Shown here piece by piece: positions 8,428 through 12,888 of a stretch of DNA of 41,139 bases. Every line of letters begins with the position of its first letter. Position 1 is the stretch's first letter. The stretch is taken from assembly GCA_019090385.1 (NCBI GenBank), contig JAHRWB010000080.1, positions 1 to 41,139 of the forward strand, written 5' to 3'. Below the pieces are notes generated by a model. It saw only the letters and a list, made by a program, of their open reading frames with translations, was not told where the DNA came from and ran no database searches. Source of the DNA: Pseudomonadales bacterium (lineage in GTDB: Bacteria; Pseudomonadota; Gammaproteobacteria; Pseudomonadales; Azotimanducaceae). The position numbers and the translations under genes were made by a program.

Positions 8428-9342
8428 TTACTCGCTAAATTTAATTAAGACCTGTTTCAAGGCCTCTACAAAGGCCAGGGGTTGATCCAAAAAAACATGA
8501 TGCTGAGCATCGGGGATTCCCGTTACGGGTATATCCAATGACGGATCACCCAGCCGAGTCAATTCACACATATATTCTACCGCCTTGGTATTGAAAAGCT
8601 TACTTTCCAAGCCATAGATCATCGCCAATTTAAAAGAGTCGTTTCTACCCAAATCCGTAAACTCATCTGGCGAAAGCTCAATACCTGTCACCGAGCCCGG
8701 TAAATCTTCATCAAACTTCCAAGTCCAACCACCTTCTTCCGCGCGCAGGGACTGTTTGGCAATATAGGTCAACAGAAATTCATTTGCACAAGGCTGTGGC
8801 GGCTGTAGCCTAAACCGCATCAGAGCAGCCTCCTTACTTGGATAAATATTGGCTTGCGCATTCAATGCTGCATGTTCAGACACAGGATCATCAGGGTGAC
8901 GAAGCCCGGTGTCTATCAGCACCAAACCACTAAAACGATCGGGGTGAGCATTCACCGTTTTTACCGCCACCATACCACCAAAGCTATGTGCAACAATGAT
9001 AGCCTCGTTAGACAGCCCAGCCGCATCAGCAACCGCCATTACTTCCTTTACATAAGTGGCCCCGCTATATTCATAGCGATAATCTGAATCGCCCATACCA
9101 GTTAGATCCATGGCGACCAGATAATAGTCTTCGATAAACAAGGGAGCGATAAAATCCCACCAATGCGAGTGGGCGTACATACCATGGATCAGTAATATGG
9201 CCGGCTTGCCAGGATCGCCCCAGCAACGATAGCACACGTCACATTCTTCCACTTCAACACTGTTGCTGACTGCTTCAGTTTCAACACATTCCCAAAACCA
9301 ATCAGGTATACTGGCAGGAGTAGATTTATCCCAACGAGCCAT
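8428..9342 (-). CDS. alpha/beta hydrolase
   Basis: The 304-residue soluble protein has an alpha/beta-hydrolase fold. The oxyanion-hole strand is ILLIHGMYAHSHWW (about 49-62), the nucleophile elbow is AHSFGG with Ser120, and a His-His pair at 281-282 (DAQHHVFLDQP) supplies the catalytic histidine. The acidic residue cannot be placed with certainty. There is no signal peptide. A good site (GAGGGG) lies about ten bases before the ATG. It is the last gene of a minus-strand group behind two acyl-CoA dehydrogenases, 59 bases downstream of the second, so it may hydrolyse a thioester, ester or ring product in that pathway. The substrate cannot be named from sequence. Confidence 0.85.
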   Translation of the reverse strand: MARWDKSTPASIPDWFWECVETEAVSNSVEVEECDVCYRCWGDPGKPAILLIHGMYAHSHWWDFIAPLFIEDYYLVAMDLTGMGDSDYRYEYSGATYVKEVMAVADAAGLSNEAIIVAHSFGGMVAVKTVNAHPDRFSGLVLIDTGLRHPDDPVSEHAALNAQANIYPSKEAALMRFRLQPPQPCANEFLLTYIAKQSLRAEEGGWTWKFDEDLPGSVTGIELSPDEFTDLGRNDSFKLAMIYGLESKLFNTKAVEYMCELTRLGDPSLDIPVTGIPDAQHHVFLDQPLAFVEALKQVLIKFSE

Positions 9343-9401
9343 ATCGATTATTACCCCTCTGAAATACTGAATTTAGTGTGTTAACAACTAACTAGTCCAT
9401 G

Positions 9402-10532
9402 CTAAAGACGTCCAAAGCGCTTAAGATGAAAATCTGTATTACCAAATAAGGTTATCAATACAGTCAAGCGTTTAAAATAGTGACCAATATTAAGCTCTTC
9501 CGTCATTCCCATACCACCATGTAACTGTACTGCACTTTGTCCAACAAACTGGGCTGATTTGCCGACCTGAACTTTTAGTGCCGATATAGCTTTTTGGGCA
9601 AGCGCATTGTAACCCTCATCCATTCTTATGGCAGCCATATAAAGAATCGATTTGGATTGCTCATGGGCCATAAACATATCTACCATACGATGCTGCAGTA
9701 CCTGAAATTTCCCTATAGGCTGCCCGAATTGCTCCCGACTCTTACAATATTCAACGGTATCTTTGTAAAGTACTTCCATCGCTCCCACGGCTTCAGCAGC
9801 CACCGCCAGGGTTGCTTCATCAATGACCTGCTCTAACAGGGGAAACCCGGCATCAAGGTCACCCAGCATATCACTTTTGGCAACCAATACATTTTCCAAT
9901 ATCAATTCCGAAGCACGTAGTGAGTCTACTGTGGGATAGTCCCGACGTGTCAGGCCCGCTGCCTTTGGATCAACAATAAACAAGCTGATACCCGATTCGT
10001 CTCTTTGTTGACCTGAAGTGCGAGCACTAACAATGAGGATATCAGCATTCTGGGCATTCAATACCACCGCTTTGTGGCCACTGAGCTTAAAGTTATCTCC
10101 ATCAGCAACAGCCGTAGTCGCGACATCCGCTAAATTAAATCGACTCTGAGGTTCTGAATAAGCAACAGCACCCTGTGATGAACCGTCAATAATACCTGCC
10201 AGTAGCTTTTCTTTCTGGGTAGGGTTTCCAGCAATTTTTAATGCCCCACCAGCTAATACCACTGATGGTAAAAATGGCTCGACAACAAGGCCTCTACCAA
10301 ACTGCTCCATCAAGATCATGACATCAACAGATGATCCACCAAAACCGCCGTCAGCTTCACTAAAAGGCACGCCTAACCAACCCAATTTTGCAAAGGTTGA
10401 CCAATTCTCCTTGCTGTACCCCCAGGCATGCACCGTATTTTGCTGACGCGCTTCAAAATTGTAATCGTTCTGAATAAAACGCGTCACACTCTCCTGCAAC
10501 AAGTCTTGTTCATCTGTGAAAGAAAAATCCAT
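9402..10532 (-). CDS. acyl-CoA dehydrogenase, second subunit of a pair
   Basis: A flavoprotein of 376 residues in the acyl-CoA dehydrogenase family, which introduces a 2,3-double bond into acyl-CoA. The helical N-terminal domain begins MDFSFTDEQDLLQESV. The C-terminal domain keeps the FAD-contacting SREQFGQPIGKFQ (265-277) and LHGGMGMTEE. The usual catalytic Glu in the C-terminal 'YEGT' position is replaced (LFGNT). E239 aligns with the alternative base position, but its context (DEAT) is not the usual one. It lies 75 bases after a second, different dehydrogenase. Such dissimilar neighbours are typical of the alpha2-beta2 enzymes described for steroid side-chain breakdown in actinobacteria. 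The heterotetramer is inference. A palindrome and then AGGAG precede the start. Confidence 0.88.
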   Translation of the reverse strand: MDFSFTDEQDLLQESVTRFIQNDYNFEARQQNTVHAWGYSKENWSTFAKLGWLGVPFSEADGGFGGSSVDVMILMEQFGRGLVVEPFLPSVVLAGGALKIAGNPTQKEKLLAGIIDGSSQGAVAYSEPQSRFNLADVATTAVADGDNFKLSGHKAVVLNAQNADILIVSARTSGQQRDESGISLFIVDPKAAGLTRRDYPTVDSLRASELILENVLVAKSDMLGDLDAGFPLLEQVIDEATLAVAAEAVGAMEVLYKDTVEYCKSREQFGQPIGKFQVLQHRMVDMFMAHEQSKSILYMAAIRMDEGYNALAQKAISALKVQVGKSAQFVGQSAVQLHGGMGMTEELNIGHYFKRLTVLITLFGNTDFHLKRFGRL

Positions 10533-10548
10533 TAGTAACTCCTGCTTG

Positions 10549-10566
10549 TCCGGTAATTTTACCGGA
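10549..10566. promoter_or_regulatory. perfect palindrome between the two acyl-CoA dehydrogenase genes
   Basis: TCCGGTAATTTTACCGGA has 8-base arms and a 2-base centre. As RNA it would form a hairpin just upstream of the AGGAG of the downstream gene. It has no following T-run, so it is more likely an RNA-processing, stability or translation element, or a protein-binding site, than a terminator. Confidence 0.5.
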
Positions 10567-10607
10567 GATTTAATGCCAATTAGAAGGGGGTTTCGTCAAG
10601 CAGACGA

Positions 10608-11813
10608 CTACAAACCCAACACAGCCTTGGCAACGATATTTTTTTGAATCTCCGTTGCACCACCAAATATAGTAGAGGCCCGGCCAAACAACATAGCCTG
10701 CAGCGTAGTCAAAGCATCATCAGGACCTATCTTTTGTTCATTATCCGACAACAATTGGTCTGGATAGGGCAGCGCATAATAGCCTAAGGCCTCAACTTTG
10801 AGGTCGGAGATCCTTTGGCTGATCTCGGTTCCCTTAAGCTTCAGTATCGACGACTCAGGGCCTGGCGCCCCGCCCTTAGCCACTGTGGCCAGCGTTCGCA
10901 GCTCAGTTATTTCCAATGCCATTAACTCGATATCCACAGCATCTACTTTTTCCACAAAACTACGATTATCAGACAAAGACCCACCATCTTGTATGGTAGT
11001 TTGCGTCAACGTCCGGAGTTGCTGAAGTAATACCCGGGACCTCGCAACCCCCGCAATGCCCGTTCGTTCATGGGTCAGCAAACCCTTTGCATAGGTCCAG
11101 CCTTTATTCTCTTCTCCAACCAAGTTCTCCACCGGGACTTTCACATCAGTCAGTGAAACTGAATTCACGGTATGTTGGTTTCCCAGCAAATAAATGGGAT
11201 GTACTTCCACACCCGGGCTGCGCATATCGATCAGTAAAAAACTAATTCCCTGCTGCGGACGCTTAGCATCAGGGTCAGTTCTAACCAAACAAAATATCCA
11301 GTCAGCATTATGTGCAGAACTGGTCCAGGTTTTAGCGCCATTAACAATATAATGGTCTCCATCCAGCACAGCTTTGGTTTGCAACGAGGCCAGATCAGAA
11401 CCCGCCCCCGGCTCCGAATAACCCTGACACCATTGTACGCTGGCCTCTCGAATGGCCGGTAAATGTCTTTTCTTCAGCGCTTCACTGGCCCAGGTATATA
11501 AAACCGGTGCTAGCATTCGCACACCAAAAGCACTCATAACCGGGCAGCCTGCACTGGCCGTCTCCCGGTCCCAAATATACTTCTGGGTGACAGTCCAGTC
11601 TGTACCACCATATTCCAGCGGCCAATCGGGTACTGACCATTGTTTTTTGATCAAAGCATCAAAATAAACCTGGGTTTCAGATATTCTATTTTTGTCCGGA
11701 CCCGACAAAGGTGCTAGATAGGAGGTACGGATCTGCCTGGGCCAAGCCTCATCTAAAAAGCCCCTGACTTCTTCCTGGAAGGCCAGATCTTCTCCATTAA
11801 GTTCCAAATTCAT
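10608..11813 (-). CDS. acyl-CoA dehydrogenase, first subunit of a pair
   Basis: This 401-residue flavoprotein is the first gene of the minus-strand acyl-CoA group. FAD/substrate motifs are clear: WCQGYSEPGAGSDLASLQT (128-146) and KTWTSSAHNADW (161-172). The C-terminus has TIFGGATEIQ, so the catalytic Glu of the common YEGT site is absent. E249 in LTHERTG matches the other known base position (as in isovaleryl-CoA dehydrogenase and FadE28-like enzymes) and is the probable catalytic base. It lacks the REQFG..I..FQ stretch that its partner keeps, so the two subunits look complementary. The substrate is unknown; a branched, cyclic or steroid-derived acyl-CoA is possible. Confidence 0.9.
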   Translation of the reverse strand: MNLELNGEDLAFQEEVRGFLDEAWPRQIRTSYLAPLSGPDKNRISETQVYFDALIKKQWSVPDWPLEYGGTDWTVTQKYIWDRETASAGCPVMSAFGVRMLAPVLYTWASEALKKRHLPAIREASVQWCQGYSEPGAGSDLASLQTKAVLDGDHYIVNGAKTWTSSAHNADWIFCLVRTDPDAKRPQQGISFLLIDMRSPGVEVHPIYLLGNQHTVNSVSLTDVKVPVENLVGEENKGWTYAKGLLTHERTGIAGVARSRVLLQQLRTLTQTTIQDGGSLSDNRSFVEKVDAVDIELMALEITELRTLATVAKGGAPGPESSILKLKGTEISQRISDLKVEALGYYALPYPDQLLSDNEQKIGPDDALTTLQAMLFGRASTIFGGATEIQKNIVAKAVLGL

Positions 11814-11863
11814 TTGCGGTTATCCCTCCAGATTGCATTGTGGAGCAGAGCACCACTGTTTTG

Positions 11864-11881
11864 TATCAGAATTTACTGATA
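11864..11881. promoter_or_regulatory. inverted repeat in a divergent promoter region
   Basis: TATCAG-aattta-CTGATA is a perfect 6-base inverted repeat. It lies in the 208-base spacer between the acyl-CoA dehydrogenase operon and the crotonase gene. The position suits an operator shared by both directions. No regulator gene of the pathway lies next to it. Confidence 0.35.
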
Positions 11882-12021
11882 GAAAAAATTCCATAAAGAA
11901 ATATTATGCGGACACACTTATAGATACAAGGTACTGTCAGATTAATTGGAAAACATAGCCCAGAGCGGGCACCATTACAAACCCGGGATAAACCAATCCG
12001 CCAAATACGGCTGCAAGCACA

Positions 12022-12888
12022 ATGAACTATAAAACCATACTCTATAACACCAGAGAATCCGTTCTCACCATTACCCTGAATCGGCCAGATAAGCTCAATG
12101 CCTTCACGGATCTCATGATGAAGGAGTTGATAGATGCCTTTGACAGGGCCGACGAGGACGACGAGGTGCGCGCTATCATTGTAACCGGTGCTGGGAGAGC
12201 ATTTTGTGCGGGGGCTGACTTGTCACGCGGGGCAGATACCTTTAACTCAGACGCTGGCAAATCAGAAACAGAACCACCCCGCGGTTTACGACGTGACGGC
12301 GGTGGCCGGCTTACCCTGCGCATATTTGATTGTAAAAAACCGGTGATTGCAGCAATTAATGGCCCAGCGGTTGGAATAGGCGCCACAATGTTATTGGCTA
12401 TGGACATTAGACTGGCATCAAAGGACGCAAAATTTGGCTTTGTATTTTCCCGCCGTGGTATTGTAAGCGAAGCCTGTTCAAGCTATTTCCTACCACGTAT
12501 TGTCGGCATTAGTCAGGCACTGGAATGGTCTTATACCGGTAAAATATTTTCGGCCGCTGAAGCACACAATGCTGACCTGGTCCGCAGCCTCTACCCAGCA
12601 GAAGATCTACTGGCAGAGGCGCACAAGCTAGCCCTGGAATTTTCCCATCAAACCTCTGCCGTTTCAATTGCATTAATCCGACAGATGATGTGGAAAATGC
12701 TGGGCGCCAATGACCCAATGGATGCACACAAGATTGATTCTCGCGGCATCTACCATATGGGCCGGTCACCGGACAGTAAGGAAGGCGTAGTCTCCTTTCT
12801 GGAAAATCGGGCACCGGACTTTCCCATGAAAGTCAGTTCCGATATGCCAGAGTTTTACCCTTGGTGGGATGAGCAAACCTTCGAATAA
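12022..12888 (+). CDS. enoyl-CoA hydratase/isomerase (crotonase family)
   Basis: A 288-residue crotonase-fold enzyme, expected to add water to, or shift, the double bond of an enoyl-CoA. The oxyanion-hole motif AFCAGADL (60-67) and the GPAVGIGAT helix (114-122) are conserved. RGIVSEACSSYFLPR keeps E150, which corresponds to the catalytic glutamate in the usual PEGGSSYLLPR version. It is divergent from two acyl-CoA dehydrogenases, whose product would be its natural substrate. The exact reaction is open: hydratase and isomerase members share these motifs. The Shine-Dalgarno is weak. The next gene starts 28 bases later on the same strand. Confidence 0.9.
   Translation: MNYKTILYNTRESVLTITLNRPDKLNAFTDLMMKELIDAFDRADEDDEVRAIIVTGAGRAFCAGADLSRGADTFNSDAGKSETEPPRGLRRDGGGRLTLRIFDCKKPVIAAINGPAVGIGATMLLAMDIRLASKDAKFGFVFSRRGIVSEACSSYFLPRIVGISQALEWSYTGKIFSAAEAHNADLVRSLYPAEDLLAEAHKLALEFSHQTSAVSIALIRQMMWKMLGANDPMDAHKIDSRGIYHMGRSPDSKEGVVSFLENRAPDFPMKVSSDMPEFYPWWDEQTFE

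Follow-up and report, generated by a model that had tools for sequence, protein, structure and literature searches.

Among acyl-coenzyme A (CoA) dehydrogenases whose active site is split between the products of two genes, the best-known ones serve steroid breakdown in mycobacteria, as stated in the accessible portion of one report (PMC8399759). For ChsE4-ChsE5 and ChsE1-ChsE2, the excerpted text of another (PMC11153573) describes an alpha subunit that binds the isoalloxazine ring and the substrate and carries the glutamate, and a beta subunit that contacts the ADP-ribose. Two-gene steroid dehydrogenases, with an alpha2-beta2 arrangement proposed or inferred, are described from Proteobacteria as well: Scd1AB and ScdC1/C2 (PMC8399759, same portion) and ORF41/ORF44 of C. 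testosteroni (PMC12502768, in extract). The pim genes of R. palustris include those for a ligase, an acetyltransferase and an enoyl-CoA hydratase (PMC6974649, in extract), and ThnJ/ThnK of tetralin degradation are described as the large and small subunits of a pimeloyl-CoA dehydrogenase (PMC6563040, in extract). We analysed a stretch of 41,139 nucleotides from a Pseudomonadales bacterium of the family Azotimanducaceae (contig JAHRWB010000080.1; the whole stretch is called the window), in which two adjacent genes encode dissimilar acyl-CoA dehydrogenases. Sequence comparison strongly supports a heteromeric enzyme, of which one gene would encode the alpha and the other the beta subunit. The features of the locus are as follows, the two codon positions being computed from the start of the respective open reading frame (ORF).

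8428-9342, minus strand: ORF for an alpha/beta hydrolase of 304 residues (Pfam Abhydrolase_6), downstream of the beta gene.
9402-10532, minus strand: ORF for the predicted beta (small) subunit, 376 residues, PimD-like, lacking the catalytic Glu and having the flavin-contact stretch.
9702-9737, minus strand: codons R266 to Q277 of beta (REQFGQPIGKFQ), the flavin-contact stretch, present in beta only.
10608-11813, minus strand: ORF for the predicted alpha (large) subunit, a PimC-like acyl-CoA dehydrogenase of 401 residues, presumed to hold the substrate site, the isoalloxazine site and the catalytic base.
11067-11069, minus strand: codon of E249, the predicted catalytic base of alpha, aligned with Glu 247 of ChsE4.
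11814-12021, no strand assigned: divergent intergenic region of 208 nucleotides between alpha and crotonase, a probable promoter region.
12022-12888, plus strand: ORF for a divergently transcribed crotonase of 288 residues (Pfam ECH_1; NCBIfam PRK08260 subfamily).

The gaps in the minus-strand group are 59 nucleotides (hydrolase/beta) and 75 nucleotides (beta/alpha).

The split of the active-site residues was computed here for the window pair and for named loci, the latter being the best 80 of at least 599 matches and nearly all carrying proteobacterial names. The initial annotation had described the 401-residue protein as having an alternative base, E249, without the flavin-contact stretch, and the 376-residue protein as retaining that stretch; both descriptions were borne out. 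E249 lies within LLTHERTG, its match to Glu 247 of ChsE4 (4x28_A) being counted from the alignment, and it is present together with R250 in 81/81 alphas (the window and the 80 named loci). R266, F269, and Q277 (R-F-Q) occur in the window's beta and are absent from its alpha. In the joint alignment, R-F-Q was found in 0/81 alphas and in all 67 betas (two of them, L148 and L159, partial), Q268 being equally invariant, and no beta had Glu at the E249 column. It was also confirmed by alignment that both proteins lack the YEGT glutamate, the position of which is G384 in alpha and, depending on the alignment, F363 or G364 in beta. Alpha residue 384 is Gly in 79 sequences and Ala in 2; beta residue 363 is F in 48, L in 17, W in 1 and Y in 1, and residue 364 is G in 67. 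Neither catalytic column thus holds Glu in any of the 67 betas. A single-gene enzyme carries the base and the flavin-contact residues in one chain, which neither protein of the window does. As in the heteromeric kind, Glu is found in alpha only and R-F-Q in beta only; on these residues the pair fits the alpha and beta roles reported for ChsE4-ChsE5 and ChsE1-ChsE2, the contacts themselves being predicted.

For the tree, 69 rows were used, as aligned stretches only, with 14 of the 80 named loci and with one solved alpha (ChsE4) and one solved beta (Tcur3481) as references; four rows were left out (the fragments C106 and C147 alpha, a 597-residue C88 protein and an 815-residue C117 fusion, all of this genome). 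The alpha clade including ChsE4 comprised 30 rows and the beta clade including Tcur3481 27 rows, each with a support of 100/99, and the single-gene acyl-CoA dehydrogenases fell outside both. It is because alpha and beta sit in two clades apart from the single-gene enzymes that a heteromeric enzyme is strongly supported. The initial annotation had proposed a split-site heteromeric dehydrogenase, to be doubted if phylogeny placed both proteins among single-gene enzymes; what was obtained is two strongly supported clades, one with the solved alpha and the other with the solved beta, and residues, tree and pairing all favour the proposal. Within them, the window alpha lies in a clade of 16 rows and the window beta in one of 15, each supported at 100/100. 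The two halves also group alike: the window with L089 (alpha 100/100, beta 93/75), C188 with C199 (100/100 each), and C100 with C113 (100/99 and 97/78).

In 67 of the 80 named loci, a beta was found by tblastn no more than 600 nucleotides from alpha (on the downstream side in 66 and upstream in 1), and the two adjoin in 24/30 short loci from relatives and this genome (counted by hand). The distances among alpha and beta subunits are correlated (r 0.70 over 65 pairs; the highest value in 2000 permutations was 0.13), which is weak evidence, since shared ancestry also produces correlation. Two clusters, L098 and L139, have three genes of the alpha type and at most one of the beta type; some alphas may therefore share a beta or work differently.

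Could the two genes be ordinary single-gene acyl-CoA dehydrogenases, chance neighbours that each form an active homotetramer? Both proteins match all three Pfam acyl-CoA dehydrogenase domains above the gathering scores, and the fold of beta matches single-gene enzymes equally well. However, throughout the sequences compared neither catalytic position of beta is Glu and no alpha has R-F-Q, the two fall into separate clades, and their adjacency is conserved. The residues and the tree rule this reading out for practical purposes, and we find it hardly credible.

Structures were predicted for single chains, from an alignment of the window and 59 of 63 usable pairs. The mean predicted local distance difference test (pLDDT) score was 87.0 for the alpha model and 96.2 for the beta model. 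In Foldseek, ranks 1-5 for alpha were chains of 4x28, 6wy8, 6wy9, and 8hk0, all of them entries named for two proteins. For beta, ranks 1-2 were 6wy8 chains (Tcur3481-Tcur3483) and rank 3 was an isovaleryl-CoA dehydrogenase. VIA-align of alpha to 6wy9_A gave Z 36.1 with a root-mean-square deviation (rmsd) of 3.4 over 368 aligned residues; the VIA-align comparison of beta was not used as evidence, because it does not separate heteromeric from single-gene enzymes. Hence the pair shares with ChsE4-ChsE5 (FadE26-FadE27, 4x28) and Tcur3481-Tcur3483 (6wy8, 6wy9) the residue split, the position of the base, the alpha and beta clades and the top structural matches. These two are steroid alpha2-beta2 enzymes, however; the window proteins are 26-30% identical to them in the structural matches, and the two steroid enzymes lie outside the PimC/D-like subclades. 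Chain A of the Fic32-Fic33 complex of Streptomyces ficellus (8hk0) was matched by the alpha model at Foldseek rank 5 (VIA-align Z 35.5, rmsd 3.1, 370 aligned); a literature search on Fic32-Fic33 gave no relevant paper.

The best NCBIfam match of alpha was TIGR03204 (PimC), with 381.4 bits against a cut-off of 623.85, and that of beta was TIGR03203 (PimD), with 414.9 bits against 652.7; IpdE2 gave 124 bits for beta. Scans with PimC and PimD covered eight alphas and two betas from the named loci, of which L150 (682 bits) and L142 (676 bits) alone passed, both for PimC. These two lie inside the 16-row alpha clade of the window (100/100), and ChsE4 lies outside it. With the best matches and this shared clade on the one hand and scores below the cut-offs on the other, the pair is PimC/D-like but no equivalog. 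The two-subunit layout, the best family match of both subunits and the alpha subclade are thus shared with PimC/PimD; the neighbours differ, being a hydrolase and a crotonase in the window. ThnJ/ThnK are related to PimC/PimD by description. Locus L107 was considered as ThnJ/ThnK, having the species name of the tetralin degrader and the same lengths (397 and 379 residues), and was rejected as the surrounding frames, taken from the ORF list only, are unlike the thn set.

The family matches raise the question of whether the pair is a true pimeloyl-CoA dehydrogenase for cyclohexanecarboxylate-type ring cleavage. Contig C199 of the same genome carries a BadI gene (474.7 bits, cut-off 467.6) and a cyclohexanecarboxyl-CoA dehydrogenase-like gene (520.6 of 575.35 bits), and we take the BadI family name to imply formation of pimeloyl-CoA. 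These genes keep a pimeloyl-type substrate open, with no link to the window. As both scores of the pair lie far under the equivalog cut-offs, pimeloyl-CoA is not shown to be its substrate. Neither a CoA ligase nor a thiolase was found among the 14 window proteins scanned, and BadI (E <= 1e-100, 58 genomes searched) occurs in only 2/8 genomes with the alpha-beta-hydrolase arrangement, this one among the carriers; a link of BadI to the block was discarded as inconsistent across the 58 genomes. We consider this reading unlikely. It may be noted that the C199 locus (L085) also has weak matches to a Baeyer-Villiger-type monooxygenase and a Rieske oxygenase, MaoC-type hydratases, and another alpha-beta pair.

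The initial annotation had taken the split as a hallmark of the actinobacterial enzymes and had tied the pair to steroid side-chain catabolism. The first claim falls because Scd1AB, described in the accessible part of PMC8399759, is proteobacterial; the split is therefore not special to actinobacteria. Scd1AB, ScdC1/C2, and ORF41/ORF44 resemble the window pair in being two-gene dehydrogenases of Proteobacteria (likened by description, not by sequence), and differ in sitting in steroid clusters. As to the second claim, a dehydrogenase of the ChsE4-ChsE5 or Scd1AB sort, acting on steroid, sterol or bile acid side chains, would have the same split architecture, and the structures closest to alpha include those of steroid enzymes. 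P91, found in 69/81 alphas, aligns with Pro89 of ChsE4, and in LCAD and ChsE4 the Pro at this position has been associated with bulky substrates (PMC11153573, excerpt). Being common to most of this branch, P91 does not discriminate. On the side of the tree, the window alpha is closer to PimC than to ChsE4, the sole steroid alpha included, and no steroid-type family was present among the 14 scanned window proteins.

Of the genome markers, KshA and HsaC were searched in 58 genomes, this one (99.35 percent complete) included. The KshA_C profile gave no match here. The probe works, since it exceeded its cut-off in 15/58 genomes, so that KshA is absent from this genome although detectable in the order. 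An HsaC-like gene (231 of 450 bits) and an HsaD-like gene (263 of 400 bits; not calibrated in relatives) were found, both below cut-off and on other contigs than the window. The HsaC marker cannot decide, because its cut-off was passed in 0/58 genomes, while a match is present in 12 of the 15 genomes that carry KshA, with best scores of 202 to 330 bits, a range that includes the score obtained here. The HsaD model is unspecific below its cut-off, as it matched in 13/14 control genomes. In the eight searched genomes with the alpha-beta-hydrolase arrangement (G000, which is this one, G001, G004, G011, G016, G026, G035, and G040), KshA was found in 0/8 and an HsaC-like gene (E <= 1e-40) in 2/8; absence of the block from the other genomes was judged from the fetched loci only, and no statistics were drawn. 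A steroid operon was thus sought through KshA, HsaC, and HsaD in this genome, and through the first two in all 58, and was set aside as none was linked to the pair. With its nearest kin PimC/PimD-like and KshA missing from 8/8 such genomes, the tie of the pair to steroid catabolism is not supported, and we hold it to be very unlikely.

Two loci elsewhere in this genome are points in favour of a steroid function. One (L082, contig C83) is the meta-cleavage cluster that has the HsaD-like hydrolase together with a 4-hydroxy-2-oxovalerate aldolase, an acetaldehyde dehydrogenase, and a 2-oxopent-4-enoate hydratase-like gene. The other (C100, 25841-26683) is the HsaC-like extradiol dioxygenase match, which has one TAA inside it and stands beside another alpha-beta pair.

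Outside the window, 41 dehydrogenase frames were counted by hand from the table of this genome. Fourteen have Glu at the E249 column and no R-F-Q, and 11 have R-F-Q with neither Glu nor Asp at either position. Among the 13 other intact, non-fused frames, seven combine Glu at one position with R-F-Q in a single chain, two (C199:12698 and C229:50543) have R-F-Q with Asp at the YEGT column, and C130:548, C163:30186, C204:666, and C88:14403 deviate in the flavin stretch. The remaining frames are the two fragments (C106 and C147 alpha) and the C117 fusion. Adjacent pairs occur on C88, C100, C113, C147, C157, C188, C199, C223, and C229, which makes ten with that of the window. The C117 frame (9269-11719) is an open frame of 815 residues spanning two dehydrogenase units, possibly a natural fusion of the two-subunit kind; CasC is a fusion of this kind reported in the available text of PMC8399759. 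Counted genome-wide, the ChsH2-type OB-fold (DUF35) has eleven matches and the acyl-CoA dehydrogenases have 44. The genome holds a large set of CoA-dependent degradation genes.

Taking these results together, we assign a probability of roughly 70% to the following reading: a heteromeric, probably alpha2-beta2, acyl-CoA dehydrogenase of a PimC/PimD-like branch that depends on flavin adenine dinucleotide (FAD), with the mechanism and the substrate class proposed here. The residue split, the pairing, the clade membership and the conservation of the module are computed results, from which we infer the complex, the number of FAD molecules, the electron acceptor, the substrate and the roles of crotonase and hydrolase. 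Alpha would hold the acyl-CoA and the isoalloxazine ring; E249 would abstract the alpha proton, and the beta hydride would pass to FAD. The catalytically empty beta would contact the ADP part of FAD where the two subunits meet. Electrons would leave through the electron-transfer flavoprotein (ETF), and the product would be a 2,3-enoyl-CoA, which the divergent crotonase might hydrate or isomerise. The alpha/beta hydrolase may act on an ester or a lactone to liberate the acid that serves as substrate, or else it may trim a CoA ester. As substrate, we favour an acyl-CoA that is medium-chain, omega-functionalised, branched or ring-derived over a steroid side chain.

Several observations weigh against this reading. 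No beta was found within 600 nucleotides of alpha in 13 of the 80 named loci; one of these (L092) ends 172 nucleotides past alpha, and another (L090) has a beta frame 619 nucleotides downstream. Likewise, 6/30 short loci have no adjacent beta, including that of G012, with an alpha 64% identical to the one in the window, and L025, which ends at a contig boundary. In this genome, alpha-type frames without an adjacent beta occur on C22, C62 (two), C163, C191, and C229 (42548), beta-type frames without an adjacent alpha occur on C172 and C214, and Glu is missing from the E249 column in the alpha-type fragment of C147. The tree flags an odd composition for Tcur3481 and two other betas, and four long rows. 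Confidence in the alpha model is low at residues 351-360, 381-390, and 131-140 (block means of 56, 54, and 65, respectively), and VIA-align ties alpha with ACAD11 and beta with many single-gene enzymes. To these may be added the scores of both subunits far below the PimC/PimD cut-offs and the distribution of BadI, which this genome has but which occurs in only 2/8 genomes with the alpha-beta-hydrolase arrangement.

The initial annotation had further suggested a compact module with a hydrolase and a divergent crotonase, and this was upheld by its recurrence. The alpha-beta-hydrolase arrangement was found again in eight further loci of the 116 searched (L039, L040, L041, L043, L044, L045, L046, and L089), hence in seven lineages, L044 and L089 being near-identical. 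The crotonase is divergent and adjoins alpha in six of them (L039, L040, L041, L043, L044, and L089); it lies about 4.7 kilobases further off in L045 and was not found within the 20 kilobases of L046. Among the 80 named loci, many of which are cut short, hydrolase and crotonase were both found at the thresholds used in L089 only. Complete blocks were observed in the bacterial family of the window and in L089, the record title of which names Gammaproteobacteria, and nowhere else. The Ser of HS(F/M)GG and the His-His of (Q/C)HH(V/L)FLDQP are kept in all nine aligned hydrolases. The crotonase is of the NCBIfam PRK08260 type (456.6 bits, cut-off 320); it has Phe where a 3-hydroxypropionyl-CoA dehydratase (a canonical hydratase) has Glu, and Glu where the PaaG isomerase has Asp, positions that we take to be catalytic. 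Because of these two replacements, an isomerase-type role of the crotonase is possible. A literature search on the hydrolase-linked branch brought no paper to notice, which is no proof that none exists. In L025 (G036:C137), the locus cut by its contig end, a crotonase 64% identical to that of the window is divergent to an alpha only 47% identical. The other neighbours in the window are presumably nrdA, nrdB, and genes for a glycerol kinase, a DUF349 protein, a sensor kinase and a regulator, as named from their translations.

L046 (6130-9529, G040:C1) holds a distantly homologous alpha-beta-hydrolase operon beside genes for an SCP2-type thiolase, a ChsH2-type OB-fold protein and an aldehyde dehydrogenase, a gene set that is, by analogy, reminiscent of retro-aldol side-chain cleavage. 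A bolder view may be built on this: the block could be a self-contained, uncharacterised degradation set with which one gammaproteobacterial lineage breaks down a bulky or ring-derived acyl ester other than a steroid, and in which the hydrolase frees the acid, the dehydrogenase desaturates it, the isomerase-type crotonase shifts the double bond and, in some relatives, the side chain is lost by retro-aldol cleavage, this last step being suggested because the G040 pair adjoins the three genes named. We regard this extension as distinctly unlikely.

The pair is a distinct branch of an already known kind of enzyme, one that is common in Proteobacteria. The split-site kind is plainly widespread, with at least 80 named loci in this branch alone and ten adjacent pairs in one genome; the split signature therefore predicts the architecture of the enzyme and not a steroid substrate. 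The pair is ordinary in kind, and its conserved hydrolase-crotonase context is of interest for a bench test. For a branch that is uncharacterised, the conserved hydrolase and crotonase outline a definite pathway that can be put to the test.

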